NCBI RefSeq assembly: GCF_020966755.1 | Contig: NZ_JAJKFT010000002.1 | Coordinates: 1 to 64,000, forward strand | DNA: 64,000 bases | Reading direction: 5' to 3' | Source: Blastopirellula sediminis | GTDB lineage: Bacteria; Planctomycetota; Planctomycetia; Pirellulales; Pirellulaceae | Shown here: one piece after another, positions 10,092-62,802 of the stretch | Layout of the letters: each line of letters opens with the position of its first letter | How positions within the stretch are numbered: the stretch's first letter is position 1 | Made by a program: the position numbers and the translations under genes | The notes under the pieces: generated by a model | Databases searched by the model: none | Told to the model about the DNA's origin: nothing | What the model saw: the letters and a program-made list of their open reading frames with translations, nothing else

Positions 10092-10445
10092 CAGAGTTAC
10101 CTGAGGGCCTCGGAACGAAATCACGAGTCGTCTGACCGACGCTGGCGTCCATGAACTCGAGATGTAGGTTTGTGTCGTCCACCAAGATATCGCCTGCCAA
10201 TTCGACAGCACAAATGGTCAATTCAAACACATGACCATCTTATCAAGGGACTCTACTGGATTACTAGCTTCTTCCCCTCCTTTTTAATGGCCAGGGCAGG
10301 GCTAAAAGGGCCGTCATGGACGTGGCGGGAAGGAAGAGGAGCGGCGGCAATCTATTGTAAAATTCCCGCCAGTCCTCTGGGGTTAATCGGGCATTCTTTC
10401 ATCTTCTCTTCCTTCTTGAGCCTCTCTCTCTTCATCCAGCCAATT

Positions 10446-16450: not shown

Positions 16451-19400
16451 TCAATCAGCGGATGGTCCCTCGGCGTCTCGCAGCGGCAACTGTAACTGAT
16501 CTAATAGGGGCTCCATAGTTGGATCCGAAACGTCCAGATAGCTGCAGCCTATCGCTCTCTGGCGGCAATCTTCGGAGAGGTTGAGGAAGCGATAGTAGTC
16601 GCTGAGCGCCTCCTTGGTGGACGAGTTCTGCGCAACTTTGCTTGCGCAAAGAGCATAGCAACATGCAGCGGCATATAGATCTTCTTTGCTCGACGGAGAT
16701 CTCCAAGAGAGAATCATGGCGGCAAGTTCCGTTTCGGTAAGGCTGTCGCGAAACGTCAACAAGTCGGGGATCTCATTCGGCGGCTGTGCGAGTATCGCAT
16801 CTAGATCCCCGTATAGAGCGACGTTCAACTGGATCATTTTTTTACTGCGAGAGGAATGCATAGTCAGCTCGTCTAGGAGGTCGCTTACACGGTCGCCGGC
16901 AAAGCCGTTATGTTGCGCATCCTGCAGCATTTTTCTAGCGGCCTCAAACTGGGAAATTGCCTCATCGTGAAGGCCAAATCTTTGGTTAAAGATGGCGAGC
17001 GATATTCGAGTATTAAAGAGATTTTGTCGCGTCTCGCTTTCATTCTCTTGTTCCGCCTTATTGGCGGCCTCGTCAGCGACCAGTACTTCCGCTTCCAGGC
17101 AATTCTTAAACATCAGGAAGTCGGACTCATCTAGTTCATACTGCGCGTCCTGAGTGCTACGAACCGCTTCTAAGAATGCGTTGATATGCTTCTTCGCATC
17201 GGAGAAATTGCGATCGTTCATTTCCAAAACGATTAGCGAATGCTGAATCTCCATCCGTTTCTTCAGGTAGAAGCGGCTGGTTTCTTCGTCCGCGATTACC
17301 AGAGGGGTCGTGATCAGTTCTTCCGCCTGGTTCAAAAGGCGACGAGCCTCGGCTATATCATGGCGTGCGGATACAAGATTCCCTAGGTTGTTCGTGGCGC
17401 CCGCTTGGCGGGCGATCCAAATTGGTTGATCTGGCGCCATTGCTGCGATTTGAGCGAAAATTGCGACTGATGTTTCCGCAAATTCTATAGCCTGCGCCAG
17501 GTTTGAATTTGCGTCATCCAAAGGAAGTTGTGAGTAACAGATCACGATACGTTCGCAGATTTGCGAGCGTGTTTGCAGGTTCTCAATGACGGGAGCTTCG
17601 CCAGGCGTCGATTGTTGACTGGCCTGAAAAGCGGCTTGGTAATGGTTAAGAGCTTCTGAAATATTCCCGTTTGCGAAATCGGGTTCCGCAAGGCGCCAGT
17701 GAGCGAAAATTAAACCTGCTTGCGCTTCTTTTTTCTCCGGCCACCTTTGAAGAATCAGGTTGCTTGTCGTCAGAATCTGCTCCAGCAAATTCAAATGTTC
17801 TTGGGGATGTTCGTCGTGTACCAATTCCGCAAGATCGCACCGCAGTTCTAACTCGCGAAGGAGAACGGTAAGGTTAAAACTCCCATATAACGCATCGAGG
17901 GATTCGAAGCGGTCATATTCTTGGGAAGCGTGGCGATAGTAGTCAATCGCCTCTGGGATATCGCCAATCCGTTTGCGCATATTGCCAATGTGCACTTGAA
18001 TCTCCGCGTACTCGGCCGACCGAGACGATTTCTGGGGATCGGCATTTCGAACGTATTCAGCAATCTCAATACAATCAAGTTCCAGTTCTTTAACTAGCTC
18101 ACGGTCCTGGCCACCCCAGGCACACTGCAGATAGTTAAGCCCGGCGTACTTGCAGATATCCCACGCTTCACCGTTCCGAGGATTGCGTTCGACCAGCGTG
18201 CAGGCGATCCGAAAACCTTGTTCAAGCTCTCCCTGGGAATCTGCCAGGGAATTACCTCTCTTGAACATTGCGAGCCCTAACATCGTGTGAGCGCGAGACG
18301 CCAGAAGCTGCGCCGGAATCGACGAATTGTCAGCCGCGGAGGCTTTTTCTGCGATTTGGAGGCAATTCTGAAAGGCGAGTTCCGCCGAATCAAGATCGCC
18401 CAAGTGCAGTTGCATTTCGCCCATACCATGAATCGCTTCCGCCAACATAAACAGATGGTTCGAGTCTGCACGATTCGTCAGTAAGTCGTGCGTTTGGCGA
18501 TAATACGTGAGGGCTTCGGAAAGGTCGCCCGCGTTTTCGCAAGCGGTTGCCTGTTGGTAAATTGCACTTGCCAAGTTGTGCCGATCCGCGTCGTTGTGCG
18601 GTCGCGAATTGGCAACGCGTTGGAATTCCGCAATCGCCTGTTGGTTAGACTCGCTTGCCGCTGGAGCGTTTCCCTGCGATTCTTTGAGGAGGCCTAGTTT
18701 CTTGAAGATTTCAGCGCGTTCCCGTATCAGATCCAGATTGTCCGGGTCCGCCTTCAGGCTGGTTTCGACCGCGCGCATTGCTGCCAAATAGAGCGGTTCG
18801 GCTTTGTCATCCGCTTGGATGGCGACGTAGGAGTCTGCGATCGCCAAATAAGCCGTGGCAGTCAATCGCGTCACCTCGTGGTCGTCGATGAGCGATTTTT
18901 GCAGGTCTTCGAGTCGTAAGACGCTAGCGTTCAGCAGGCGTTCGCTAACGGCATGCAATTCTGGAACGTTCTCCACGGCGGAACTAACCTCTTCTATCAG
19001 CATCCGAAGGCTACCGATCGCAAGTTGTCCCCTTTGTTCAGCAAGTTGCGCGTTCGCTCGCGCCGTGTTTGCATTCCGGGTCGCCTCGGCGGCGAATGCC
19101 AGCGATACGATCGTACCGATGGCGAAAGTCGCGGCAATGGCTGAGGTAAAGCCTGCAACCATACGATTCCGTTTGCACCACTTCCAGGCGCGACGAAATA
19201 CGCCCGGCGGACGTCGGAGGATACTCTTTCCGGTAAGAAATCGTTCTATTTCGTCAGCGAACTCCTGGGCGCTCTGGTACCGATCTTGAACTTGCTTCGA
19301 CAACGCACCTAAGCAGATTGTCTCAAGATCGGCCGGAATCTTGTGATTGACCTCCCGAAGACGACGCGGTTCGATTGCATCATCGCTGATTTGAATAATG

Positions 19401-20581
19401 ACGTCATTTGCGCTGTAACCACGAAACGGCCGTTCGCCGCACAGCAATTCATAAAGAATGACGCCCATGCTAAAGACGTCGCTTCGTCCATCGGCATGAC
19501 GAGAATCCCCACGAGCAAGTTCCGGGCTCATATAGGCGGGCGACCCCATCTGATCACGACTGAGGGTGAGTAATACCTCACTGTTTACGAGCTTGGCGAG
19601 TCCAAAGTCCAAGATACGGGGTCCATCGTCGGTTGATATCATGATGTTGGCCGGCTTCAGATCGCGATGCACAACGCCGGCCGCGTGTGCGGCCGCCATG
19701 GCTCTAGCGACGTTCAAAACGGTTCTGGCTGACTCGGCGAATGTCAATTGTTTCGCCGAATCGCCATGTTCGGCGGTAAACTCGTGAAGGTTTACGCCTT
19801 CCACGAATTCCGAGACGATATAGGGGATGTCTCCGACTGAACCTACTTCGTATACCGGAACGATGCCTGGATGTCGCAATTTCGCGGCGCTAACCGCCTC
19901 GCGTCGAAAGCGATCGTCGTCCGAAGCGGGAAGGAAGTGGTGATGAGGAATCTTGATGGCGACTACCCGTTTCAATTGCGTGTCAAACGCTTGATAGACG
20001 GTTCCAAAGGCGCCTTTTCCGACTTCCGTCAAGAGTTGAAACTTGCCAAACGTGTGATTAGTGAGTTCGGTGGGGTTAACGACATCGAGTTCCTGCTCGC
20101 ACATCGGGCACCGAAGTCGGTCTTCATCTGGTCGATTCGCTTCATCGAAGACCTGATTGCAACGCGAACAGCGTCTTGGCGATGCAGCAAGCGTTTCCAA
20201 TTCCCCGCGAATTCGCGCAGCGTAAGCCGGAAAGCGTTCGCAGAATTCTTGCGGATTGACCAACGTGTTACGTCGCTGCCGGTACTTGTACTCGGATAGG
20301 AGCAACTGGATGACCGTTTCATCGTTCGCTGGAAGGTTGGGATACCGTTCGAAATAGTGTTCGACGCGAATATCTTCTCCGGCGAGTACTCGAAACTCCA
20401 AATCGGAATCGAGCACGTCGGCCAGCAATTGGACGTTCGAGGCTAACTCCGGCGGAATATAGTCCTCGATGGCTGGCAACAGTCCGGCCTGCCAGGATTC
20501 GTTCAACGCTTCTAAAGCGTCGTCCCGAAGTTGCTCCAGGAGCGGCCAGGAGTCGTTTGGCGCAGAAGGGTCCGCGTTCAT
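16451..20581 (-). CDS. Transmembrane Ser/Thr kinase with extracytoplasmic TPR region
   Basis: A 1,376-residue kinase. ATG 20581 (MNADPSAPN) is preferred over a TTG four codons earlier; neither has a good ribosome site. Order: a helical preamble with LLPAIEDYIPP; a zinc-ribbon-like element (about 135-161) with CSRC and CPMC; Hanks kinase (about 177-452) with GKGAFGTVY, AIKIP lysine, HRDLKPAN, DFGLAK and SPELARGD; one membrane segment (about 474-492); then about 880 residues of helical TPR-like repeats with no further membrane segment. The kinase would face the cytoplasm and the TPR part the periplasm. All catalytic residues are intact. It is convergent with the ECF sigma gene and on the same strand as the small secreted gene 118 bases upstream. 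Confidence 0.93.
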   Translation of the reverse strand: MNADPSAPNDSWPLLEQLRDDALEALNESWQAGLLPAIEDYIPPELASNVQLLADVLDSDLEFRVLAGEDIRVEHYFERYPNLPANDETVIQLLLSEYKYRQRRNTLVNPQEFCERFPAYAARIRGELETLAASPRRCSRCNQVFDEANRPDEDRLRCPMCEQELDVVNPTELTNHTFGKFQLLTEVGKGAFGTVYQAFDTQLKRVVAIKIPHHHFLPASDDDRFRREAVSAAKLRHPGIVPVYEVGSVGDIPYIVSEFVEGVNLHEFTAEHGDSAKQLTFAESARTVLNVARAMAAAHAAGVVHRDLKPANIMISTDDGPRILDFGLAKLVNSEVLLTLSRDQMGSPAYMSPELARGDSRHADGRSDVFSMGVILYELLCGERPFRGYSANDVIIQISDDAIEPRRLREVNHKIPADLETICLGALSKQVQDRYQSAQEFADEIERFLTGKSILRRPPGVFRRAWKWCKRNRMVAGFTSAIAATFAIGTIVSLAFAAEATRNANTARANAQLAEQRGQLAIGSLRMLIEEVSSAVENVPELHAVSERLLNASVLRLEDLQKSLIDDHEVTRLTATAYLAIADSYVAIQADDKAEPLYLAAMRAVETSLKADPDNLDLIRERAEIFKKLGLLKESQGNAPAASESNQQAIAEFQRVANSRPHNDADRHNLASAIYQQATACENAGDLSEALTYYRQTHDLLTNRADSNHLFMLAEAIHGMGEMQLHLGDLDSAELAFQNCLQIAEKASAADNSSIPAQLLASRAHTMLGLAMFKRGNSLADSQGELEQGFRIACTLVERNPRNGEAWDICKYAGLNYLQCAWGGQDRELVKELELDCIEIAEYVRNADPQKSSRSAEYAEIQVHIGNMRKRIGDIPEAIDYYRHASQEYDRFESLDALYGSFNLTVLLRELELRCDLAELVHDEHPQEHLNLLEQILTTSNLILQRWPEKKEAQAGLIFAHWRLAEPDFANGNISEALNHYQAAFQASQQSTPGEAPVIENLQTRSQICERIVICYSQLPLDDANSNLAQAIEFAETSVAIFAQIAAMAPDQPIWIARQAGATNNLGNLVSARHDIAEARRLLNQAEELITTPLVIADEETSRFYLKKRMEIQHSLIVLEMNDRNFSDAKKHINAFLEAVRSTQDAQYELDESDFLMFKNCLEAEVLVADEAANKAEQENESETRQNLFNTRISLAIFNQRFGLHDEAISQFEAARKMLQDAQHNGFAGDRVSDLLDELTMHSSRSKKMIQLNVALYGDLDAILAQPPNEIPDLLTFRDSLTETELAAMILSWRSPSSKEDLYAAACCYALCASKVAQNSSTKEALSDYYRFLNLSEDCRQRAIGCSYLDVSDPTMEPLLDQLQLPLRDAEGPSAD

Positions 20582-20655
20582 AGGGATAGCCAATCATTTA
20601 ACGTCGCGAATGCTTTGCTAGATTACGCAGGTTGTAGCCTGGATTCGCCGCACCA

Positions 20656-48465: not shown

Positions 48466-51400
48466 CTAGGGTCGGCGCGGTATCGATGGTCTTGTCCGTG
48501 TGGTTTGACAGGGTTGGTAATTTGGGCCGCGGAGCAATTGATGGAATGGTGGACCGGCCTCTTCTTCCATTTCTTCGTGCCACTGTCGCGTCGTACCGTC
48601 AAGAATGTCGATGATCGCCGACTCGTGCAGCACCCAATCCGGGACGTACGAGAAACGCCGCGGATCTTGGGCGTCGGTGAGCGTTTGGACGATTGGCTCA
48701 TCCTCTTGCGATTCCGCCTGTGACGTTGGCCAATCATTCGGCGAGTCGAGATTTCCAAACGCCGCGTCCACGTTGGCGGCAAAAAAGTGCGGCGCCGGCA
48801 GCGTCTGCTGGGGAAGAATCATTTCTCCTTCGAGGAGCGGGGTTGAGCTCGCGCCAGGCAGAATCGTATTCGTCGCAAGCGAAATCGACTCACTTTCGAG
48901 CGGCGCCGACAGCGGTTGCGTTTGCGGCAGCGGAGGTAAGCGTACGCTGTTTCCGTCGTTTGAGTTAATCCCGACGTTCCGAATGAAGTAGGCCAGGTCG
49001 ACCAGAGAAACGACTCCGTCTTGATCGAAGTCGAAGCGATACGCGGCAGGAGTAAAGTTGACGTTATCGCCAATTTGGCGAATTAAGTACGCCAGGTCGA
49101 CTAAGGTGACCGTGTTGTCGTCATCAATGTCGAACGGCACGACGCGCATTTGAGTCGTTGGCGAAGCGTTCAGCTCGGCCGGCAGGTTCGCAGCGTTGAC
49201 GAACATCAGTTCCACGTCGGCCAGCGCGAACTGCAAGTCGGCAACGGCTTCCGGATAGGCGCCGACGACGTCGTTGGGAAGGCCGCCGGCCGAGTTCGGC
49301 TGAAAGCGAAAACTGCCGATGAGGAAGTAAGCGGTACGGCCGACGTCGCCGGCCACTAGTTGACCAGCCGTCACCTCCAGCGCGTCGCCGGTGTCGACGA
49401 CCGACAACTGCCCAACGCCGCTGCTGGGCGTAAAGCTGTGCAAATCGAACCACTCGCTATTGTAGTCCAGCTTCAGCGAAACGCCGGTTAGATCGTCGAC
49501 GTATTGTTCGTCGTATCGGATCCATACGTTGACGGTAAACTTTTGCCACTCGTGGATCGATTCCAAGTCGCTCGGTAAGGTGGCCGCTTCCCCGGAGGCG
49601 TCGGTCGTCGCCGGCGTGTCGCTAATCGTGATAAACGCGTCCGCTTGTGGGAGAACGTTCAGTTGAAAAGTTGCCTGGGAGATTCCGCCATTGCCGTCAT
49701 CAACCGTAATTTCGACCAGCTGGCTATCGCTAAGTTGCGCGTCAGCCAGCGACCAAGACCACGTGCCGTCGAGATTGTCGACGATATTGCCGACGGATGC
49801 TGAGAAAGCAAGCAGGTTGCCGCCGGGATCGCTGTAGGTTCCCGTTGCAGTCGCCATGGCGCCGGGAGAAATGATGACGGAGGAAACGTCGGCCGCAATC
49901 ATCGGCGGGACGTTTTGAACCGTAAGAATCGCCGCGGCGTAGCGGATGACTCCTTGGTCGTTGGCGTACTTCAAAACAATTTCGTAGACGCCGGCGCTCC
50001 CCAGTCCGAACGATGCTAGGGATGCCGCCGAGATTGTCGGCGCCACGCCGCTCGCGTCATCGTACTGACCGTCCCCGTCCAGGTCCCATTCGTAGCTGAC
50101 GACGTTTGCGCCAGCGGTGGAAGCGTCGAGCGTTAAATCGGCGCCTTCGTCGATTGCGTATGGTCCACCGGCTTTTGGGAAGAAATGGAACAGTTGGGAG
50201 TCGATTTCGTAACTGCTGCTCTCCAGCGAATACGTTGACCAGGCAATGACAAATTTGCCTTCCGCGCTGACCGCGGCCGATGGGAGATACTGATTGCTCG
50301 CAGTGGTAGAATTGACGCGAAACTCTTCACCATCGGGCGTACCGTCAACATCGTAACGCTGGGCGTAGACGCCATAGCCGCTGCCGTCCTGTAGATTGCT
50401 CTGCCAGGTGATGACGAACCGGCCGTCGACGCTGATCGCCACCGTTGGGTTGGCTTGATGGTCTTCCGTGGTGGAATTGACCTGGAACTCGGGGCCATCG
50501 GGAGTGCCGTCGGCCAGATACCGCTGGGCGTAGATTCCCCCGCTGCTGCCGTCTTGCGAATTGCTCTGCCAGGCGATGACGAACCGATCCGCGTTCATCG
50601 CTACTGATGGGAATTGCTGTTCGTTTTCGGTGGTGAAGTTGACGCGGAACTCGGGGCCATCGGGCGTTCCGTCGACCCTATATCGCTGGGCAAAGACGTC
50701 ATTGCTGCCGTCCACATGATCGCTTTGCCAGGCGATCACAAATCGGCCGTCGGCGTCGATTGCCGCCGTCGGACTGGATTGACCACCTGAGGTAGTGGAA
50801 TTGACGCGGAACTCAGTTCCGTTAGGCGTGCCGTTGGCCAGGTACCGCTGGGCGTAGACGCCCAAGAAGCTACCGTCTTGTTGATTACTAGACCAGGCGA
50901 TGACGAACTGGCCGTCGGCGCTCATCGCCACTGTGGCGGCGCCTTGATGGTTTTCGGTCGTGGTATTAACGCGGAACTCGGGGCCGTCAGGCGTGCCATC
51001 GGCGAGATACCGCTGGGCGTAAATGCCATCGCCGCTACCGTCCTGCGAATCGCTCTGCCAGGCGATGACGAATCGGCCATCGGCGGACATTGCCACGGTG
51101 GGGAGCTGTTGATTGTTTGCCGTGGTGGAGTTGACGCGGAACTCGGGGCCATTGGGCGTTCCGTCGGACAAGTACCGCTGCGCGTAGATCCCCGTGCCGC
51201 TGCCGTCCTGTAGATTGCTATTCCAAACGACAACGTAATCGCCGACAGCGTTCGTCGCGATCACAGGGTTCGTTTGTTCGTCTGTCGTCGTCGTATTGAC
51301 CCGCACTTCCGGTCCTTCGGTCGTGACGCCATCGACGAAGATCGTTTTCCTGGCTTGGCTGCTCCCGCCTTCTTGATCCGTGACGGTCAGTACGATGTGG

Positions 51401-54400
51401 AAACTTCCTCCGGTCGTCGGCGTGAACTGGAAGGTCGTCAGATTGACGCCAGAACCGGTGAACGCGGGTACCGTGACGCCGTCTTGGAAGACTTCGTAAC
51501 GATAGGTAAGCGTCTCCGGAGGATCGGCCAGATCGGTGGCGCTGCCGATGACGTTGATCGGTTGGTTGGGAATGCGAACAAGAGGAGTCGAGTAGAGGCT
51601 CGCCTTCGGCGGGGCGTTTACTACCGTGACCGTCGCCGGAGCGACGCGGAAGTTCCCTTCGTCGTCGGTCATGCGGAGCGCGATGGTATGTACGCCGCGA
51701 GCGTTCAAGCCGAGCGTCGCCAAGGTCGCCGCCGAGATCGTCGGCGTAGCCCCGGTCGCGTCATCGTATTGACCATCCCCGTCGAGATCCCAGGCGTAGC
51801 TGACGACGTTGGCCTCGGCGACGGAAGCTGCGAGCGTTAAATCGCTTTCCTCATTGATCACGTACGGTCCGCCCGCTTCCGAGACGAAGAGGTACCGCTG
51901 GGCGTAGATGCCATAGCCGCTGCCGTCCTGCAGATTGCTTTGCCAGGCGATCACGAACCGTCCGTCGACGCTCATCGTCGCAGTGTGAGCAAGTTGCTGA
52001 TCTTCCGTAGTGGTATTGACGCGGAACTCCGGGCCCTCGGGCGTGCCGTCCGCGAGGTACCGCTGGGCGTAAATGCCATACTCGCTGCCGTCCTGCAGAT
52101 TGCTTTCCCAGGCGATGACGAATCGACCGTCGCCGCTCATTACCGCCGTGGGGTTGGCTTGAGTGTTCTCCGTCGTGGAGTTGACGCGGAACTCCGGTCC
52201 GTCGGGCGTGCCGTCGGCCAGGTACCGCTGGGCGTAAATGCCATAGTTGCTGCCGTCCTGCAGAGCGCTATCCCAAGCGATGACAAATCGTCCGTCGCCG
52301 TCAATCGCCACGGTAGGGTTAGATTGAACGCTTTCCGTAGTCGTATTGACGCGGAATTCTGGTCCGTCGGGGACGCCATTGGCAAGGTACCGCTGGGCGT
52401 AGATCCCCGTGCCGCTGCCGTCCTGCAAATTGCTTGTCCAGGCGATGACGAACCGGCCGTTGGCGCTCATCGCCAGTGTGGCGTACAGTTGACTCTCTGC
52501 CGTGGTGGTATTGACGCGGAACTCCGTGCCCTCGGGGGTTCCGTCGGCCAAGTACCGTTGGGCGAAGACGCCCTGGTTGTCGCCAGATCCGTTACCCCAC
52601 CAGGCGATGGCAAACCGCCCGTCGGGCGTTATGGCGGCCGTAGGGCTGAGTTGCGGTCCAGCCGTGGTGGAATTGACGCGGAACTCGGGGCCGTCGGCCG
52701 TACCGTCGGCCAGGTACCGCTGGGCGTAGATGCCAAAATCGCTGCCGTCCTGCTGGTTGCTTTGCCAGGCGATGACAAACCGGCCGTCGGCGCTCATCGC
52801 GACCGTGGGAGCTTCCTGGTAGATTGCCGTGGGAGAGCCGACGCGGAATTCCTGACCGTCGGGGGCGCCATCGGCCAGGAACCGCTGGGCGTAAATGCCG
52901 AAGTCATTGTCTGGGCCGTTGCCGTACCAAACGACAATGTAATTGCCAACTGCGTCCATCGCGATGACGGGGGACCGTTGCTCGCCGATCGTGGTCGTGT
53001 TGACCCGCGTTTCCGGCCCAACCGCGGCGACGCCATTGACGAAGATTGTTTGACGGACCTGACTGCTCGCGCCTTCTTGATCGCTGACGGTGAGTACGAC
53101 CTCGTAACTTCCTCCGCTCGTCGGCGTGAATTGGAAGTTGGTCAGGTTGACCCCCGAGTCGGTGAAGGAGGGGACGTCGGCGCCATCTGCGAAGATCTCG
53201 TACAGGTAAGTGAGCGTTTCCGGCGGATCGGCCACGTCAGTGGCGCTGGCGACAATGTCGATCGCCTGGTTCGCAACGCGATCCGGCGAAATCGCATCGA
53301 TGCTCGGCGTTGGCGGCGCGTTTACCACCGTGACCGTCGTCGGAGCGACGTGGAAGTTCCCTTCGTCGTCGGTCATGCGGAGCGCGATGGTATGGACTCC
53401 GCGAGCGCTCAGGCCGAGCGTCGCCAAGGTTTCCGCCGAGATCGTCGGCGTGGCCCCAGTCGCGTCATCGTATTGACCGTCGCCGTCGAGGTCCCAGGCG
53501 TAGCTGACGACGTTGGCGTCTGCGACGGAAGCTGCGAGCGCTAAATCGCCTTCCTCGTCGATCACGTACGGTCCGCCCGCTTCTGAAACGAAAGTATACC
53601 GCTGGGCGTAGATGTCCCAAAAACTGCCGCCTTGCAAATAGCTTTCCCAGGCGATGGCGAACCGGCCGTCGGCGCCAATCGCCACACTGGGCGATTCCTG
53701 ATTGTCTGCCGTGGTGGTGTTCACGCGAAACTCCGGGCCGTCGGGCGTTCCGTCGGCCAGGTACCGCTGAGCGTAGACGCCAAACGCGCTGCCGTCCTGC
53801 AGTACGCTTTCCCAGGCGATGACGAACCGACCGCCGGCGTTCATCGCTGCCGTGGGTTGGACTTGATCGTTTGCGATGGTGGAATTAACGCGGAATTCGG
53901 GACCATCGGCCGTGCCGTCGGCCAAGTACCGCTGGGCGTAAACGCCCCAGCCGCTGCCGTCCTGCAAATTGCTGGTCCAGGTGATAACGAATCGGCCGTC
54001 CATACCGATCGCCACACTGGGCAAGGCCTGATTGTCTGCCGTGGTGGTGTTCACGCGGAACTCTGGCCCTTCGACAGTACCGTCGGCTTGGTACCGCTGG
54101 GCGTAAATGCCCAATTCGCTACCGTCCTGTCGATAGCTCTGCCAGGCAATAACGAACCTTCCGTCGGCGCTCATCGCGAGAGTGGATTCCTGTTGGTTGT
54201 TCTCCGTCGTAGAATTGACGCGGAACTCGGGGCCATCGGGCGTACCGTCGGGCCGGTACCGCTGACCGAAAATACCATCGCGGCTGCCGTCTTGGTTGCT
54301 ACTCTGCCAACAGATGACGAACCGGCCGTCGGCAGCCATTGCCGTAGCAGCAGCCGTTTGCCCTCCTGTCGTAGTGGAATTGACGCGGAACTCGGGACCG

Positions 54401-57400
54401 TCTGGCGTGCCGTCAGCCAGATACCGCTGGGCGTAGATGTCGTAGCCACTGCCATCGGTACGTTCCCAGGCAATGACAAACCGGCCGTCGGCAGTCATTG
54501 CCGCCGCAGGAAACCCCATAGCGCCTTCCGTGCTGGAATTGACGCGGAACTCCGGGCCAATCGGGGCGCCGTCGGCCAGGTACCGCTGGGCGTAGATGCC
54601 GTAGTCATAGTTGCTGCCGTCTTGTAGATAGCTCTGCCAAACGACCACGTAATTGCCAACTGCGTCCATCGCGATGACAGGGGACCGTTGGTCGCCGAGG
54701 GTGGTCGTATTGACCAGCGTTTCCGGCCCAACCGTCGTGACGCCATTGACGAAGATCGTTTGACGGACCTGGCTGCTCGCGCCTTCTTGATCGCTGACGG
54801 TGAGCACGACTTCGTAGTTTCCTCCGGTCGTCGGGGTGAACTGGAAGGTCGTCAGGTTGACCCCCGAGTCGGTGAAGGAGGGGACGTCGGCGCCATCGGC
54901 GAAGATTTCGTACAGGTAAGTGAGCGTTTCCGACGGATCGGCCACATCAGTGGCGCTGGCGACGATGTCGATCGCCTGATTCGCAACGCGATCCGGCGAA
55001 ATCGCATCGATGCTCGGCGTCGGCGGCGCGTTCACCACCGTGACCGTCGTCGGAGCGACGCGGAAGTTCCCTTCGTCATCGGTCATGCGGAGCGCGATTG
55101 TATGGACTCCGCGAGTGCTCAGGCCGAGCGTCGCCAAGGTTTCCGCCGAGATCGTCGGCGTGGCCCCAGTCGCGTCATCGTATTGGCCGTCCCCGTCGAG
55201 GTCCCATGCGTAGCTAACGACGTTGGCCTCTTTGACGGAGGCCTCGAGTGCTAAATCGCTGCCGTCTGCGATGACGTAAGGCCCGCCTGCTTCCGAGACG
55301 AAGAGGTACTGCTGGGCGAAGATGCCATAGCCGCTGCCGTCCTGCAGATTGCTCTGCCAGGCGATGACGAATCGACCGTCGATACCCATGGTCGCCGTGG
55401 GAGCAAGTTGCTGGTCTTCCGTAGTGGAGTTGACGAGGAACTCGGAGCCGTCAGGCGTGCCGTCGGCTTGATACCGCTGGGCGTAGACGCCATAGCCGCT
55501 GCCGTCCTGAAGATAGCTGCGCCAGGCGATGACGAACTGACCGTCGGCGCTCATCGCCGTTGCGGGAGCAATTTGCTGGTCTTCCGTCGTGGAATTGACG
55601 AGGAACTCCGGTCCGTCGGGCGTGCCGTCGTCCAGGTACCGCTGGGCGTAGACGCCATAGCCGCTGCCGTCTTGTTGATAGCTATGCCAGGCGATGACGA
55701 ATCGGCCGTCAGCGCTCATCGCCGCCCTAGGGAAAGCTTGCGTGTCGCCGGTGGTGGAATTGACGCGGAACTCGGCGCCGTCGGGCGTGCCGTCGTCCAG
55801 GTACCGCTGAGCGTAGATGCCCCAGCCGCTACCGTCCTGTAAAAAGCTCTGCCAGGCGATGACGAACCGGCCGTCGGCGCTCATCGCCAGTGTGGCGTAC
55901 TGTTGACTCTCTGCCGTGGTGGTATTGACGCGGAACTCCGGTCCGTCAGGCATACCATTCGCCAGGTACCGCTGGGCGTAGATGCCATTGTTGTCCCCTG
56001 GTCCGTTGCCGATCCAGGTGATGACGAACCGCCCGTCGGCAGTTATTGCCGCCGCAGCGGAGAGTTGTTGGGCGTCCGTCGTGGAATTGACGCGGAACTC
56101 AGAGCCCTCGGGCGTGCCATCCGCTTGGTACCTCTGGGCGTAAATTCCCCAGCCGCTACCATCCTGCAGATCGCTCTGCCAGGCGACGACGAATCGGCCG
56201 TCGGCGTTCATCGCGACCGTGGCGAACTGTTGATTGTTTGCAGGGGTGGCATTGACGCGGAACTCAGGGCCATTCGGTGCGCCGTCGGCCAAGTAACGCT
56301 GGGCGTAGACGCCGATGTTATTGTCTGGGCCGGCGCCATGCCAAACGACAACGTAATTGCCAACTGCATCCATCGCGATGACGGGGGACTGTTGGCCGCC
56401 GAGCGTGGTCGCGTTGACCCGCGTTTCCGGCCCAACCGCTGCGACGCCATTGACGAAGATCGTTTTGCGAACCTGACTGCTCCCGCCTTCTTGATCGCTG
56501 ACGGTGATTACGAGTTCGTAGTTTCCTCCGGCGGTCGGCGTGAATGCGAACGTGGTCAGGTTGACCCCAGAGCCGGTGAAGGAGGGGACATCGGCGCCGT
56601 CTGCGAAGATCTCGTAGAGGTAGGTCAGCGTCTCCGGCGAATCGGCCAGATCAACTGCGCTGGCGACAATGTCGATCGCCTGGTTCGCAACGCGAACCGG
56701 CGAAATCGAATCGATGCTCAGTGTCGTCGGTGGCGCGTTCACCACAGTGACCGTCGTCGGCGCGACGTGGAAGTTCCCTTCGTCGTCGGTCATGCCGAGT
56801 TCGATTGTATGGACTCCGCGAGCGTTCAGCCCGAGCGTCTCCAAGGTCGCCGCCGAGATCGTCGGCGTGGCCCCAGTCGCGTCATCGTATTGGCCGTCCC
56901 CGTCGAGGTCCCAAGCATAGCTGACGATACTTGCGTCTACCGTAGACGCTTCAAGCGTTAAATCACTTCCTTCTTCAATCACGTAAGGCCCGCCCGCTTC
57001 CGAGACGACGACGTACCGTTGGGCGTAAATGCCATGGTAGCTTCCATCCTGCTCAAGGCTCTGCCAGGCGATGACGAATTGTCCAGCGGCGCTGATCGCC
57101 ACCGTCGGGTCGTATTGGTGGTCTATCGTCGTGGAATTAACGCGGAACTCGGCGCCTTCTAGCGTGCCATCGGCCCGGTACCGCTGGGCGTAGACGCCAA
57201 AGCCGCTGCCGTCCTGCGAATTGCTATCCCAGGCGATGACGAACTGACCGTCGGCGTCGATCGCCGCTGTGGCGCGGCCTTGACCGTTGACTGTGTTGGA
57301 ATTCACGAGGAATTCTTCACCGTTGGGCGTGCCGTCAGCAAGGTACCGCTGGGCAAAAACGCCGTCGGAGTCTCCAGGGCCATTGCCATGCCAGACGATG

Positions 57401-60063
57401 AGGAACTGGCCGTCGCCGGTCATCACTGCCGTTGGGGCAACTTGACTGCTTGCCGTGGTGGAATTGACGCGGAACTCGGGTCCGGCTGGCGTACCGTCAG
57501 CCAGGAACCGCTGGGCGTAGATGCCGTAGCCGCTACCGTCCTGCAGATTGCTCTGCCAGGCGATGACGAAGCGTCCGTCGGCGCTCATCGACGCCGTGGG
57601 AAACTGTTGATCGTATTCCGTGGCGGAGTTGACGCGGAACTCCGAGCCATTTGGCGTGCCGTCGGCCAGGTATCTCTGAGCAAATATGCCAGGGTAGTCG
57701 CCAGGTCCGTTGCCATGCCAGGCGATAACGAACTGACCGTCGGCTCCAATGGCCGCCGTGGGGGCGTATTGAGTGTATTCCGTTGTCGAATTTACCAGAA
57801 ACTCTGGTCCGTCAAGCGCGCCATTGGCTAGGTAACGCTGGGCGAAGATGCCCCCATCGCTGCCGTCTTGCCGATCGCTTAACCAGGCGATGACGAACCG
57901 ACCGTTGGCGTTCATCGCGACCGTGGCGAGCTCTTGGATGTTGGCCGTGTGGGCATTGACTCGGAACTCAGCGCCATTAGGCGTGCCGTCGGCTAGATAC
58001 CGCTGGGCGTAGATGCCGGAGTTATCATCTGGGCCGTTGCCGTACCAAACGACCACGTAATTGCCAACTGCATCCATCGCGATGACGGGGGACAGTTGGT
58101 CGCCGAGCGTGGTCGTGTTGACCCGCGCTTCCGGCCCAACCGCGGCGACGCCATTGACGAAGATCGTTTTGCGTACTTGACTGCTGCCGCCTTCTTGATC
58201 GCTGACGGTCAGTACGATTTCGTAGTTTCCTCCGCTCGTCGGCGTGAACTGGAAGTTCGTTAGGTTGACCCCAGAACCGGTGAAGGCGGGGGCGTCGGCG
58301 CCATCTGCGAAGATCTCGTACAGGTAGGTGAGCGTCTCCGGCGGATCGGCCACATCAGTGGCGCTGGCGACAATGTCGATCGCCTGGTTCGCAACGCGAA
58401 CCGGCGAAATCGAATTGATGCTCAGCGTCGGCGGGGCGTTCACCACCGTGACCGTCGTCGCAGCAGCGCGAAAGTTTCCTTCATCATCGGTCATGCCGAG
58501 CGAGATTAAGTATTCCCCACGAGCAGCCAAGCCGAGCGCCGCTAAGGTAGCCGCCGAGATCGTCGGAGTCGCGCCGCTCGCATCGTCGTACTGACCGTCC
58601 CCGTCGAGGTCCCACGCATAGCTGACGATACTAGCGTCCGCGGTGGAAGCGTCGAGCGTCAAATCGCTCCCTTCGGCGATCACGTAGGGGCCGCCTGTCT
58701 CGGGAGAGAAGAGATACCGCTGAGCGTAGACGTCATAGCCGCTGCCGTCTAATGGATTGCTGGGCCAAGCGATGGCGAAGCGACCATCGGCGCTCATCGC
58801 AACCGACGGAGCGGTTTGAAGTCCTTCGGTGGTGGAGTTAACGCGAAACTCGTCGCCGACGGGCGTTCCATCGGCCTCGTACAGCTGGGCGTAGACGCCC
58901 CAACTGCTACCGTCCTGTACAAGGCTTTGCCAAGCGATGACGAAGCGGCCGGCGGCGCCGATCGCCAAGTTGGGAAGAGACTGATCATTTGCGGTGGTCG
59001 AATTGACGAGGAACTCGGGGCCATCAGGGGTGCCATCGGCCAGGTATCGCTGGGCGTAGACGCCATAGCCGCTGCCGTCCTGCACATTGCTGGTCCAGGC
59101 GATGACGAATCGCCCGTCGGCGCCCATTGCCACCGTGGGGCTTGTTTGATCGTTTGCGGTGGTGGAATTGACGAGGAACTCCGATCCGTCGGGCGTACCG
59201 TCCGCCACATACCGCTGGGCGAAGATGCCGTATCCGCTACCATCCTGCAAGTTACTTGACCAACTTATAATGAACCGTCCGTCTGCCCCCATCGCCGCCT
59301 TGGGCGCGGTTTGACTGCTGTCTGTGGTGGAGTTGACGAGGAACTCGTCATCGACAGGGGCGCCATCGGCGGAGAAGCGTTGAGCATGGATGCCGCGGGA
59401 GTCCCCCTGGCCATTGCCATACCAGGCGATGACAAACCGGCCGTCTGCGCTGATCGCCACCGCGGGCAAGGCTTGACTGCCATCCGTGGTGGAGTTGACT
59501 TGGAACTCCGAGCCGTCGGGAGTGCCATCTGCCAAGTATCGTTGGGCATAGACGCCGTTCCCGCCCCCATCCTGCAGATTGCTCGTCCAAGCGATAACGA
59601 ACCGGCCGTCGGCGGTCATCGCTATCGTCGGTTGCTGTTGATGGTCCTCGGTGGTGGAGTTAACGCGGAACTCTGGGCCGTCGGGGGCGCCATCAGCCAT
59701 GTACCGTTGGGCGTAAATTCCATACCCGCTGCCGTCCTGCAGATTGCTCTGCCAAACGACGACGTAGTTGCCAATCGCATCCATCGCGATGACCGGGGCC
59801 GTTTGGTCGCTTTCCGTGGTCGTGTTGACCAAGTATTCGCTCCCCACGGTGGAGACGAATTCAGCGTCGATCAGGATCGGATCGACCGTCAGCATTGCCC
59901 GGAGTTCCAATTGCTCGAAAGCAGGCGAAGTGCGACGCGACGTCAGGGAGTTGCGAAGTCTAAGCGGACGAGGATTCAGGGACATATAGGGGATGCCGCG
60001 GTGAAGCTGACTCGAAGAGGGAGGTTGGCTAGAAGATCGGGATCCATTCGACCCAAAGGACAT
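48466..60063 (-). CDS. Giant surface protein with six seven-repeat propeller modules
   Basis: Up to 3,865 residues. ATG 60063 opens the longest frame; ATG 59985 (MSLNPRPLRLRNSL) gives a leader more typical of LEPR-xLL proteins, and neither has a clear ribosome site. The leader motif is FEQLELRAML. Six modules of about 568 residues follow. Each has seven 55-residue repeats with the pattern EFRVNSTT..Q..P..AM, DGRFVIAW and YAQRYLADGTP, then a PKD-like domain (GGPYVI, YAWDLDGDGQYDD) and an Ig-like domain (VANQAIDIVASATD, FQFTPTSGG). The last module leads to a cohesin-like domain, two dockerin-like calcium loops (DIDDDNTVTLVDLAYLI and [17 protein letters not shown]) and an acidic C-terminal tail shared with the 23376 gene. 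It is probably a secreted, calcium-binding structural or adhesive protein. Confidence 0.93.
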   Translation of the reverse strand: MSFGSNGSRSSSQPPSSSQLHRGIPYMSLNPRPLRLRNSLTSRRTSPAFEQLELRAMLTVDPILIDAEFVSTVGSEYLVNTTTESDQTAPVIAMDAIGNYVVVWQSNLQDGSGYGIYAQRYMADGAPDGPEFRVNSTTEDHQQQPTIAMTADGRFVIAWTSNLQDGGGNGVYAQRYLADGTPDGSEFQVNSTTDGSQALPAVAISADGRFVIAWYGNGQGDSRGIHAQRFSADGAPVDDEFLVNSTTDSSQTAPKAAMGADGRFIISWSSNLQDGSGYGIFAQRYVADGTPDGSEFLVNSTTANDQTSPTVAMGADGRFVIAWTSNVQDGSGYGVYAQRYLADGTPDGPEFLVNSTTANDQSLPNLAIGAAGRFVIAWQSLVQDGSSWGVYAQLYEADGTPVGDEFRVNSTTEGLQTAPSVAMSADGRFAIAWPSNPLDGSGYDVYAQRYLFSPETGGPYVIAEGSDLTLDASTADASIVSYAWDLDGDGQYDDASGATPTISAATLAALGLAARGEYLISLGMTDDEGNFRAAATTVTVVNAPPTLSINSISPVRVANQAIDIVASATDVADPPETLTYLYEIFADGADAPAFTGSGVNLTNFQFTPTSGGNYEIVLTVSDQEGGSSQVRKTIFVNGVAAVGPEARVNTTTLGDQLSPVIAMDAVGNYVVVWYGNGPDDNSGIYAQRYLADGTPNGAEFRVNAHTANIQELATVAMNANGRFVIAWLSDRQDGSDGGIFAQRYLANGALDGPEFLVNSTTEYTQYAPTAAIGADGQFVIAWHGNGPGDYPGIFAQRYLADGTPNGSEFRVNSATEYDQQFPTASMSADGRFVIAWQSNLQDGSGYGIYAQRFLADGTPAGPEFRVNSTTASSQVAPTAVMTGDGQFLIVWHGNGPGDSDGVFAQRYLADGTPNGEEFLVNSNTVNGQGRATAAIDADGQFVIAWDSNSQDGSGFGVYAQRYRADGTLEGAEFRVNSTTIDHQYDPTVAISAAGQFVIAWQSLEQDGSYHGIYAQRYVVVSEAGGPYVIEEGSDLTLEASTVDASIVSYAWDLDGDGQYDDATGATPTISAATLETLGLNARGVHTIELGMTDDEGNFHVAPTTVTVVNAPPTTLSIDSISPVRVANQAIDIVASAVDLADSPETLTYLYEIFADGADVPSFTGSGVNLTTFAFTPTAGGNYELVITVSDQEGGSSQVRKTIFVNGVAAVGPETRVNATTLGGQQSPVIAMDAVGNYVVVWHGAGPDNNIGVYAQRYLADGAPNGPEFRVNATPANNQQFATVAMNADGRFVVAWQSDLQDGSGWGIYAQRYQADGTPEGSEFRVNSTTDAQQLSAAAAITADGRFVITWIGNGPGDNNGIYAQRYLANGMPDGPEFRVNTTTAESQQYATLAMSADGRFVIAWQSFLQDGSGWGIYAQRYLDDGTPDGAEFRVNSTTGDTQAFPRAAMSADGRFVIAWHSYQQDGSGYGVYAQRYLDDGTPDGPEFLVNSTTEDQQIAPATAMSADGQFVIAWRSYLQDGSGYGVYAQRYQADGTPDGSEFLVNSTTEDQQLAPTATMGIDGRFVIAWQSNLQDGSGYGIFAQQYLFVSEAGGPYVIADGSDLALEASVKEANVVSYAWDLDGDGQYDDATGATPTISAETLATLGLSTRGVHTIALRMTDDEGNFRVAPTTVTVVNAPPTPSIDAISPDRVANQAIDIVASATDVADPSETLTYLYEIFADGADVPSFTDSGVNLTTFQFTPTTGGNYEVVLTVSDQEGASSQVRQTIFVNGVTTVGPETLVNTTTLGDQRSPVIAMDAVGNYVVVWQSYLQDGSNYDYGIYAQRYLADGAPIGPEFRVNSSTEGAMGFPAAAMTADGRFVIAWERTDGSGYDIYAQRYLADGTPDGPEFRVNSTTTGGQTAAATAMAADGRFVICWQSSNQDGSRDGIFGQRYRPDGTPDGPEFRVNSTTENNQQESTLAMSADGRFVIAWQSYRQDGSELGIYAQRYQADGTVEGPEFRVNTTTADNQALPSVAIGMDGRFVITWTSNLQDGSGWGVYAQRYLADGTADGPEFRVNSTIANDQVQPTAAMNAGGRFVIAWESVLQDGSAFGVYAQRYLADGTPDGPEFRVNTTTADNQESPSVAIGADGRFAIAWESYLQGGSFWDIYAQRYTFVSEAGGPYVIDEEGDLALAASVADANVVSYAWDLDGDGQYDDATGATPTISAETLATLGLSARGVHTIALRMTDDEGNFHVAPTTVTVVNAPPTPSIDAISPDRVANQAIDIVASATDVADPPETLTYLYEIFADGADVPSFTDSGVNLTNFQFTPTSGGSYEVVLTVSDQEGASSQVRQTIFVNGVAAVGPETRVNTTTIGEQRSPVIAMDAVGNYIVVWYGNGPDNDFGIYAQRFLADGAPDGQEFRVGSPTAIYQEAPTVAMSADGRFVIAWQSNQQDGSDFGIYAQRYLADGTADGPEFRVNSTTAGPQLSPTAAITPDGRFAIAWWGNGSGDNQGVFAQRYLADGTPEGTEFRVNTTTAESQLYATLAMSANGRFVIAWTSNLQDGSGTGIYAQRYLANGVPDGPEFRVNTTTESVQSNPTVAIDGDGRFVIAWDSALQDGSNYGIYAQRYLADGTPDGPEFRVNSTTENTQANPTAVMSGDGRFVIAWESNLQDGSEYGIYAQRYLADGTPEGPEFRVNTTTEDQQLAHTATMSVDGRFVIAWQSNLQDGSGYGIYAQRYLFVSEAGGPYVINEESDLTLAASVAEANVVSYAWDLDGDGQYDDATGATPTISAATLATLGLNARGVHTIALRMTDDEGNFRVAPATVTVVNAPPKASLYSTPLVRIPNQPINVIGSATDLADPPETLTYRYEVFQDGVTVPAFTGSGVNLTTFQFTPTTGGSFHIVLTVTDQEGGSSQARKTIFVDGVTTEGPEVRVNTTTTDEQTNPVIATNAVGDYVVVWNSNLQDGSGTGIYAQRYLSDGTPNGPEFRVNSTTANNQQLPTVAMSADGRFVIAWQSDSQDGSGDGIYAQRYLADGTPDGPEFRVNTTTENHQGAATVAMSADGQFVIAWSSNQQDGSFLGVYAQRYLANGTPNGTEFRVNSTTSGGQSSPTAAIDADGRFVIAWQSDHVDGSNDVFAQRYRVDGTPDGPEFRVNFTTENEQQFPSVAMNADRFVIAWQSNSQDGSSGGIYAQRYLADGTPDGPEFQVNSTTEDHQANPTVAISVDGRFVITWQSNLQDGSGYGVYAQRYDVDGTPDGEEFRVNSTTASNQYLPSAAVSAEGKFVIAWSTYSLESSSYEIDSQLFHFFPKAGGPYAIDEGADLTLDASTAGANVVSYEWDLDGDGQYDDASGVAPTISAASLASFGLGSAGVYEIVLKYANDQGVIRYAAAILTVQNVPPMIAADVSSVIISPGAMATATGTYSDPGGNLLAFSASVGNIVDNLDGTWSWSLADAQLSDSQLVEITVDDGNGGISQATFQLNVLPQADAFITISDTPATTDASGEAATLPSDLESIHEWQKFTVNVWIRYDEQYVDDLTGVSLKLDYNSEWFDLHSFTPSSGVGQLSVVDTGDALEVTAGQLVAGDVGRTAYFLIGSFRFQPNSAGGLPNDVVGAYPEAVADLQFALADVELMFVNAANLPAELNASPTTQMRVVPFDIDDDNTVTLVDLAYLIRQIGDNVNFTPAAYRFDFDQDGVVSLVDLAYFIRNVGINSNDGNSVRLPPLPQTQPLSAPLESESISLATNTILPGASSTPLLEGEMILPQQTLPAPHFFAANVDAAFGNLDSPNDWPTSQAESQEDEPIVQTLTDAQDPRRFSYVPDWVLHESAIIDILDGTTRQWHEEMEEEAGPPFHQLLRGPNYQPCQTTRTRPSIPRRP
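50156..59860 (-). repeat. Six 1.70-kb modules containing forty-two 165-bp repeats
   Basis: The PKD-like landmark recurs at about 58680, 56979, 55272, 53561, 51858 and 50156, spacing 1,701-1,711 bases. Counting the translated repeats gives seven per module in every module. The repeats are all in frame and vary mostly at surface-type positions. Confidence 0.93.
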
Positions 60064-60741: not shown

Positions 60742-62802
60742 ATGGACGATGTGCAGCCTGACGAGACAATCGCGCGAGTAACGGCCTTTCAAGCGATTTG
60801 CGAGCGATTTGAGGAAGCGTTCGTCGACGGCGCTATGCCGGCGATTGAAGACTATCTTCCCTGCGTCAGCGCCGACGAGCAGGCCAAACTCTTGGAAGAG
60901 CTTGTCTTCGTCGAATTGGAGCTTTTGCAAGCGCCGCTTCCCCCAGACGTCTCGAGCTACTTGGAACGGTTTCCTCAGCACAGCGATGCGATCCTCAGCG
61001 CAGCGGAGCAATACGAGCGGGATAGCGGGAAGAAGGGGAGAAACGCCCCTTGTGCGACGATCTCAGGCGGAGAAGTCGCGGAGTCGGATTCACAACAAGA
61101 TTTTGAGATCGCCGCAGAAGTCGCTGAGCGAGCGCGGGTCAAACCGCCTTCCATTCGCCGCTTTCGGCTTGAGAAGCGACTGGGGAAAGGAGCCTTCGGA
61201 GCGGTCTATCTGGCGGAAGACCTTCGTCTGCATCGCAAGGTAGCGTTGAAGTTTCCGTTGCGAAGTTCGGAATTGTCCGCCAGCGAACTCCAACGGTTCT
61301 TTCGGGAAGGTCAGGCCGCCGCAGCACTTCGTCATCCGAACATCTGTCCTGTCTATGAGTTGGCCCAGGAGGATGGCCAGGTCTACATCGCCATGGCCTA
61401 TATCGAGGGGGCGACCCTGGCGAAACGAATCGCCGAGAAGAGGTGCGAGCTTCTCGAAGCGGTCTTGTTAGTCGAAAAGCTTGCGCGAGCGCTGGAGTAC
61501 GCGCATCGCAAAGCAGTTGTTCACCGCGATCTGAAGCCTAGCAACATCATGTTCGACGCCGAACATGATGAGCCGGTCATCATGGACTTCGGACTCGCAC
61601 GTTACCAAGAAGTCGACAATACGGCCCTCACGCGGAATTCCGTCATCATGGGGACCCCAGAGTATATGTCTCCGGAGCAGGCCCGCGGCGACGCCAACAA
61701 GGTGACGGGACAATCGGACGTCTTTTCGCTAGGAGTGATTCTTTACGAACTTTTGACAGGCGAGGTTCCCTTTCAAGGGAGACTGATCGAGATCCTGAAT
61801 CAGATCCTCAGCCATGAGCCGACGCCTCCGGCCGAGAAGAACCCCAACATCGACGACGCGCTGCAATCGATTTGTCTAAAGGCGATGGCGAAGGACCCAG
61901 CGGAGCGGTTCGCGTCGATGCAAGAGTTCGCCGACGCGCTACAGGGATGGCGCCAGGAGACCAACCAAGACAATCGTTCGATCGCTCTTCCCCCGCCGTC
62001 TTCCTCGCTGAACCTCAAGGGGCCGGTTAATGGCAAGGTTTTGGCGGCGCTTGTGGCCGTCATCGCCGTCGTCGCCCTGATTTTCGTCGTCAAACGACTT
62101 TCTACCTGGTACGGCGGAGAGAACAACGCGGCCAGCGTTACCGCACCGATGACGACGAAGGCGATCGCTGAGCCAAACGATCCAGGCATGACGTCGCCGG
62201 TCGTCGACGAGTTGGAAGTCCGTCACTTTCGCCATGAAAACAATCGAGAAGTCGCCCTGGGAACGCTCGGTACGCAGACCGGGCGTGTGCAAGTGGGCGA
62301 CGATCTTCGCGTTCTCGTTCGTTTTCAGGAGCCGCAGTATGCGATGTTAATCGCGGTGAATACTGATGGTTCGGTCCAGCTATGCTTGCCTGAGGAAGAA
62401 GCGGCGATTCCTCAAGCGACCCAAGAATTGAACTTGTACGAGAACCCCAACGATTACTTCACCCTGACCGAAGGGGCCGGGGGACAATTGTTCTTCGTCG
62501 TCGCCTCTAGCCAGCCGCTCCCTTCCTTTCAAACCTGGAAAGAACGTCTCCAGCGCGACTTGGTTGCAATTACCGAACCGACGTCGATCTGGCAATTCAA
62601 GAACGGTCAGTACCTGCGCACGAGCCTCGACGCCGCCGGACGTCCGATCGACGCGTCCATCTCACGCGGTACCAAAACCCGACGAAACCCACCCAGCCAA
62701 CTGCAAGAGGCGCTAAACGTCTTACAAACGCTCCCCGACGTCGAAACCGTCGAGGCGATTTTGTTTCCAGTGGTGGAGCCTGAAGCGAACGGCGGAAATT
62801 AG
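60742..62802 (+). CDS. Transmembrane Ser/Thr kinase with DUF4384-like C-terminus
   Basis: A 686-residue kinase starting at ATG 60742; the ribosome site is weak. Order: helical preamble with AMPAIEDYLP, the same motif as in the kinase at 16451; Hanks kinase (about 140-403) with GKGAFGAVY, ALKFP lysine, HRDLKPSN, DFGLAR and SPEQARGD; proline-rich linker; one membrane segment (GKVLAALVAVIAVVALIFVV, about 430-453); then an extracytoplasmic domain (about 490-600) containing LRVLVRFQEPQYAMLIAVN and GSVQLCLP, which matches the DUF4384 type often fused to such kinases. All catalytic residues are intact. It differs from the other two kinases in having a short sensor rather than repeats. It is divergent from the giant surface gene, with 678 bases between. 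Confidence 0.92.
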   Translation: MDDVQPDETIARVTAFQAICERFEEAFVDGAMPAIEDYLPCVSADEQAKLLEELVFVELELLQAPLPPDVSSYLERFPQHSDAILSAAEQYERDSGKKGRNAPCATISGGEVAESDSQQDFEIAAEVAERARVKPPSIRRFRLEKRLGKGAFGAVYLAEDLRLHRKVALKFPLRSSELSASELQRFFREGQAAAALRHPNICPVYELAQEDGQVYIAMAYIEGATLAKRIAEKRCELLEAVLLVEKLARALEYAHRKAVVHRDLKPSNIMFDAEHDEPVIMDFGLARYQEVDNTALTRNSVIMGTPEYMSPEQARGDANKVTGQSDVFSLGVILYELLTGEVPFQGRLIEILNQILSHEPTPPAEKNPNIDDALQSICLKAMAKDPAERFASMQEFADALQGWRQETNQDNRSIALPPPSSSLNLKGPVNGKVLAALVAVIAVVALIFVVKRLSTWYGGENNAASVTAPMTTKAIAEPNDPGMTSPVVDELEVRHFRHENNREVALGTLGTQTGRVQVGDDLRVLVRFQEPQYAMLIAVNTDGSVQLCLPEEEAAIPQATQELNLYENPNDYFTLTEGAGGQLFFVVASSQPLPSFQTWKERLQRDLVAITEPTSIWQFKNGQYLRTSLDAAGRPIDASISRGTKTRRNPPSQLQEALNVLQTLPDVETVEAILFPVVEPEANGGN

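Follow-up and report, generated by a model that had tools for sequence, protein, structure and literature searches.

We propose that a 3865-residue protein of Blastopirellula sediminis most likely consists of six closed seven-bladed beta-propellers strung in one chain on PKD/Ig-like spacers, a reading drawn from repeat counts in its homologues together with an AlphaFold2 model of one module. The gene lies within the 64,000-nucleotide stretch of DNA analyzed here (the window), and its features are collected in Table 1. A motif scan around the FVIAW strand placed 42 repeat anchors, grouped as six runs of exactly seven; anchors lie 53-57 residues apart inside a run, and about 240 residues separate one run from the next. 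Tandem Repeats Finder independently reported 165-bp periods at the same places. The repeat is about 55 residues long, with the blade consensus PEFRVNSTTendQqaPTaAMsADGRFVIAWqSNlQDGSgyGIYAQRYLADGTPDG and the pattern E-F-x-V-N ... P-x-V-A ... G-x-F-V-V-x-W ... G-I-Y-A-Q-R-Y-x-A-D-G. In the first spacer, the PKD domain is matched by PF22352 (35.5 bits) and PF00801 (26.9 bits), and the Ig-like domain by Big_9 (24.3 bits, cut-off 23.6). The motif scan and Pfam thus confirm a preliminary description of this DNA, which had read 42 repeats as six times seven with a PKD and an Ig-like domain behind each run. Long open reading frames that face the repeats on the plus strand were read as mirror frames of the repeats.

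Table 1. Features of the propeller protein gene, in window coordinates
Feature	Position	Strand	Remarks
Whole ORF: N-terminus, six propeller-PKD-Ig modules, C-terminal tail	48466..60063	-	3865 aa, ATG
N-terminal 74 aa with FEQLELRAML motif; presumed export region	59842..60063	-	inferred from sequence
Propeller 1, seven blades	58714..59841	-	
Spacer 1, PKD + Ig-like	58135..58713	-	
Propeller 2, seven blades	57013..58134	-	
Spacer 2, PKD + Ig-like	56431..57012	-	
Propeller 3, seven blades; its module was the one used for structure prediction	55306..56430	-	
Spacer 3, PKD + Ig-like	54727..55305	-	
Propeller 4, seven blades	53596..54726	-	
Spacer 4, PKD + Ig-like	53017..53595	-	
Propeller 5, seven blades	51892..53016	-	
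Spacer 5, PKD + Ig-like	51313..51891	-	
Propeller 6, seven blades; last blade the most divergent	50188..51312	-	
Spacer 6, PKD + a second domain of another, Ig/cadherin-like type	49639..50187	-	
C-terminal tail, common to the neighboring 8238-aa protein and other giants of the genome	48466..49638	-	
Dockerin type I-like pair of Ca-loop repeats within the tail (residues 3644-3696)	48976..49134	-	PF00404, 22.8 bits

The history of the modules bears directly on how the count of seven is to be read. Blades in equal positions of different modules share 65.3% identity, whereas shuffling positions within modules 5000 times gives a mean of 60.0% and a highest value of 63.0%. Identity along the protein has its maxima at lags of 7, 14, and 21 blades. 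Because same-position blades are more alike than shuffled ones, this comparison shows that the six modules came from duplication of the entire propeller-PKD-Ig unit. The six sevens are therefore not six independent counts, which lends some weight to the alternative that the number is an accident of recent module duplication and that the repeats, never closing into a ring, form an open solenoid or separate beta-sandwiches. Among modules, the dN/dS of the blades is 0.19-0.37, indicating purifying selection on the protein and its reading frame. Between modules 3 and 4, dS is 0.21 in the PKD-Ig spacers (window 53017-55305) versus 0.74 in the propellers; spacers that are closer than propellers at silent sites suggest that the spacers of these two modules were exchanged (converted) separately from their propellers.

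Homologues provide counts from well beyond this one protein. With a single-blade profile, 85 of 196 genomes from the same order gave matches. With a module profile, 121 of 199 from the same family did, and some of the latter matches may be due to the PKD and Ig-like domains that this profile includes. When one genome was scanned for each species, matches extended to Myxococcota, Cyanobacteria, Chloroflexota, Acidobacteriota, Bacteroidota, Verrucomicrobiota, KSB1, and WOR-3, as well as Alpha-, Beta-, Gamma-, and Deltaproteobacteria. We counted blades with an iterated blade HMM, built on 1409 repeats, in 148 loci (L033-L160 and L186-L205) that are phylogenetically non-independent, leaving out blocks close to the end of a contig or locus. 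Of the blocks with at least five repeats, 148 held seven, six held 14, and four held 28, against 17 others, with five (n=5), six (n=9), 10, 12, or 13 repeats (n=1 each); no block of eight or nine was found by this count in any of the 148 loci. Several of the 17 are weakly scored or interrupted arrays. For example, the blocks of 13 in L160 and 12 in L200 become 14 once adjoining weak or missed blades are added, the block of 10 in L198 makes 14 with the 3+1 that precede it, and L192 reads as six blades, a weak blade, and seven more, again 14. In addition, interrupted arrays run 3+1+3 in L066, L067, L070, L073, and L074, with inserts behind blades three and four, and 3+4 in L075, so that the inserts keep the total of seven; many of the blocks of one to four repeats are pieces of such arrays. 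A few blocks with four to six detected blades, as in L088, L095, L100, L114, and L142, appear to depart from the rule of seven. Loci retrieved with the module query may be biased toward sevens; those retrieved with the single-blade query have the same peak (51 sevens).

Two apparent departures proved to be artifacts of detection. The eighth match in the seeming blocks of eight of L033 and L034 is a dockerin scoring 3-5 bits, and a seeming nine in L066 is really seven blades with long linkers. Since the counts are quantised, chance and plain tandem-repeat expansion are ruled out as their source. The preliminary description had argued that a fixed count of seven implies a closed structure under selection. 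As an argument from within this one protein it is weakened by the duplication of modules, and the homologue counts now carry it instead: we infer from them that seven is maintained because the closed ring is what folds. The same counts tell against an accident of duplication, in that 7, 14, and 28 recur in homologues of many phyla and inserted segments leave the total at seven.

Structure prediction points in the same direction. AlphaFold2, run on module 3 (568 aa) with a six-row alignment, gave a model with a mean pLDDT of 76, in which the blades mostly reach about 80-93 and the PKD domain is poorly modelled (29-53). The modelled strands recur seven times, with three long strands and one short strand in each blade. 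Foldseek comparison of this model with the PDB returned largely propellers as best matches, and the top match of a structural aligner was the propeller of CylK (Z 41.9, rmsd 2.4 A over 359 residues, model residues 3-382), with integrin propellers forming a next tier far below it (Z about 28-31). The closed toroid is thus a predicted one, resting on superposition onto a crystallographic closed seven-bladed propeller, and AlphaFold2 may be prone to close any blade-like repeat. No solved structure of the blade family was detectable by sequence; even the CylK chain did not appear within an E-value of 10 in a profile search of the PDB, though it was the top structural match. The preliminary description had named an open solenoid and freely varying repeat counts as the observations that would tell against it, and neither was seen; both of the checks it had suggested, modelling one module and counting repeats per block in other genomes, turned out in its favor. 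That the predicted module fits a closed propeller so well, and that the blades of the measured long arrays are just ~29-40% identical, speak further against an accidental seven in an open or unconnected structure, which we consider very improbable.

The seven-repeat unit can also be read where nothing separates one propeller from the next. Twenty-eight repeats follow each other without a spacer in five loci (L063, L105, L186, L187, and L188), four of which entered the count once a duplicate start was removed, and L063 belongs to the window's own genome (C4:1785265-1789839). Within L063 and within L105, identity between blades stays near 0.29 for most lags but rises to 0.34 at lag 7 and to 0.51 or 0.49, respectively, at lag 14, so that the unit is evident in the sequence even without separators; these two proteins look like four propellers, made by doubling a two-propeller unit. 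The own genome further encodes, on C10, a 2386-aa protein in which 6+7 blades were detected. Several seven-repeat blocks per protein occur elsewhere as well, with six in L116 (Roseibium) and six plus one truncated block in L110 (Shimia); the planctomycete locus L089 has four. The preliminary description, which knew of no described protein with this arrangement, must therefore be qualified by the four to six blocks found in other bacteria. The titles and abstracts retrieved by a literature search on giant planctomycete proteins with propellers do not describe it. Within the genus, no comparable giant was found in the three other genomes examined, and two of the three hold a single-propeller protein of ~530 aa.

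The ends of the propeller protein link it to other giants of its genome. Its N-terminal motif resembles their starts, and because this terminus has no Pfam or NCBIfam match and no signal model match, its role in export is presumed. The tail (~390 aa) comprises a dockerin-like pair, an LLEGEAI-like motif, and an acidic end. The dockerin type I model PF00404 falls 0.1 bit short of its cut-off of 22.9 bits there, and scores 25.1 bits in the sister tail of the adjacent 8238-aa protein, with which the tail shares 75% identity over 249 residues. It also occurs at 39-51% identity in four other own-genome proteins of 1171-2386 aa. In all, at least six large own-genome proteins carry it (C10:1309761-1326148 and others), including a cluster of four, and about five more have a weaker version. 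Judged by this distribution, the shared tail looks like a surface-retention module; its predicted structure, from the two copies in the window, has a pLDDT of 38.

The 8238-aa neighbor (window 23376-48092, reverse strand) combines an M12-like peptidase region with RTX repeats (about 16 stretches), malectin (two stretches), right-handed beta-helices, Ig-like domains, and a dockerin. The giant genes are flanked by three genes for Ser/Thr protein kinases (window 5193-10211, 16451-20593, and 60742-62802), of which one has leucine-rich repeats and another has TPRs. A separate TPR gene (window 10808-11974) contains 3.8 copies of a 306-bp unit that match at 96%, the product of a recent amplification.

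Taken as a whole, we regard it as probable that the protein is a secreted chain of six propellers that arose by module duplication, is retained through its dockerin-like tail, and serves in multivalent binding. The protein is probably secreted, and its function is probably binding. After export, the dockerin-like tail, common to the other giants, would keep it at the cell surface or in the matrix, and the six propellers would form a row of identical discs suited to high-avidity binding of a repeated ligand, perhaps a polysaccharide or perhaps the surface of another cell. By analogy with CylK, metal ions at the blade junctions may stiffen the rings outside the cell. The inter-blade loop of the repeat is Gly/Asp-rich, and its sequence, ADGTPDGPEF, would suit a metal site. 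The C-terminal propeller of CylK, a seven-bladed ring known from crystal structures, carries Ca2+ at each of its blade junctions (PDB 7fh6-7fh8, 7ron, and 7roo; eLife 2022, PMC8916777). Over the 1409 blades, G51 is conserved at 91%, G55 at 100%, and E2 at 90%.

The likeness to CylK, together with the sialidase and glycoside hydrolase propellers among the structural matches, also raises the question of whether the propellers are enzymes, as catalytic or substrate-binding domains acting on an extracellular substrate. We consider this unlikely. The active site of CylK requires Arg105 of its N-terminal RTX domain in addition to Tyr473 of the propeller (PMC8916777); the propeller protein (P0001) gave no RTX match. 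Moreover, the strongly conserved E2, N6, Q13, G24, W30, and G51 come back in every blade, as befits structural positions and not one asymmetric site, and avidity explains six near-identical copies better than catalysis does. A more serious competitor, still doubtful in our view, is that the protein is mainly a structural rod or matrix component, held by contacts of the cohesin-dockerin type with other giants, with propellers that have no particular ligand. The dockerin-like pair and tail that it has in common with the adjacent 8238-aa protein and at least four other giants fit such a role; a partner cohesin was not identified, however, and beta-propellers usually serve as interaction platforms.

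No Pfam model fits the repeat convincingly: the matches in the repeat region (CopC, GH43, and others) add up several weak, partial ones, and in the block from the window none of them passes alone. The NCBIfam model NF053835 (PDIAV motif-containing lipoprotein) scores 99.9 bits on the propeller protein against a cut-off of 90, a sum over several stretches of which the best covers 362 residues of one propeller, and it also matches 21 of 40 diverse relatives. That family is a lipoprotein of ~458 residues, with space for one propeller, whereas the present protein has six copies in its 3865 residues and no cysteine within its first 80, and hence no lipobox there. The Delta-60 repeat (TIGR02608) has a like layout, a blade-like repeat of 55-60 residues (...G-K-I-V-V-A-G...F-A-L-x-R-Y-N-x-D-G...), and its matches are weak (18.9-29 bits, well under the curated cut-off of 76.5). 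In L100 (Bradyrhizobium), blades of our family and delta-60-like repeats stand in one chain (ORF residues 771-999), hinting that the two are distantly related.

The most interesting part of these results is the quantised number of blades across bacteria. A widespread and poorly catalogued bacterial repeat of 55 residues can be read as the blade of a seven-bladed propeller whose copy number comes in sevens, and annotation of many long "hypothetical" proteins becomes possible. It may also offer a natural system in which to study how closed repeat proteins can gain repeats and avoid misfolded intermediates. More tentatively, it is tempting to speculate that these proteins form a propeller family of many phyla in which blades occur only in closed sevens, with the strings acting, in planctomycetes and other bacteria, as modular multivalent adhesion rods, tethered here by a dockerin-like tail. 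What began as an argument from counting is now a tested structural statement, supported overall; as the propeller fold is common and strung propellers are known in other bacteria, the protein is a well-supported addition to a known class, and not in kind a new fold.

Comparison with known systems helps to place this addition. CylK, the closest in structure, shares the seven blades of the module model at just 14-15% identity, and it is an enzyme with one propeller behind an RTX domain, whereas the present protein has six. The integrin alpha headpiece, in which a seven-bladed FG-GAP propeller is followed by an Ig-like thigh domain, has the same propeller-then-Ig layout, but it is an animal receptor with another blade motif and 7-11% identity, and the analogy is one of layout only. 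Several propellers per chain are also a feature of LRP/megalin, with its YWTD blades and EGF spacers; there, the blades form six-bladed rings. Finally, repetitive WD40 propellers, likewise several to a chain, were made by blade amplification with loose totals, such as 15 (7+8) and 47 (PMC9218822), whereas arrays of the blade family described here are nearly always multiples of seven.
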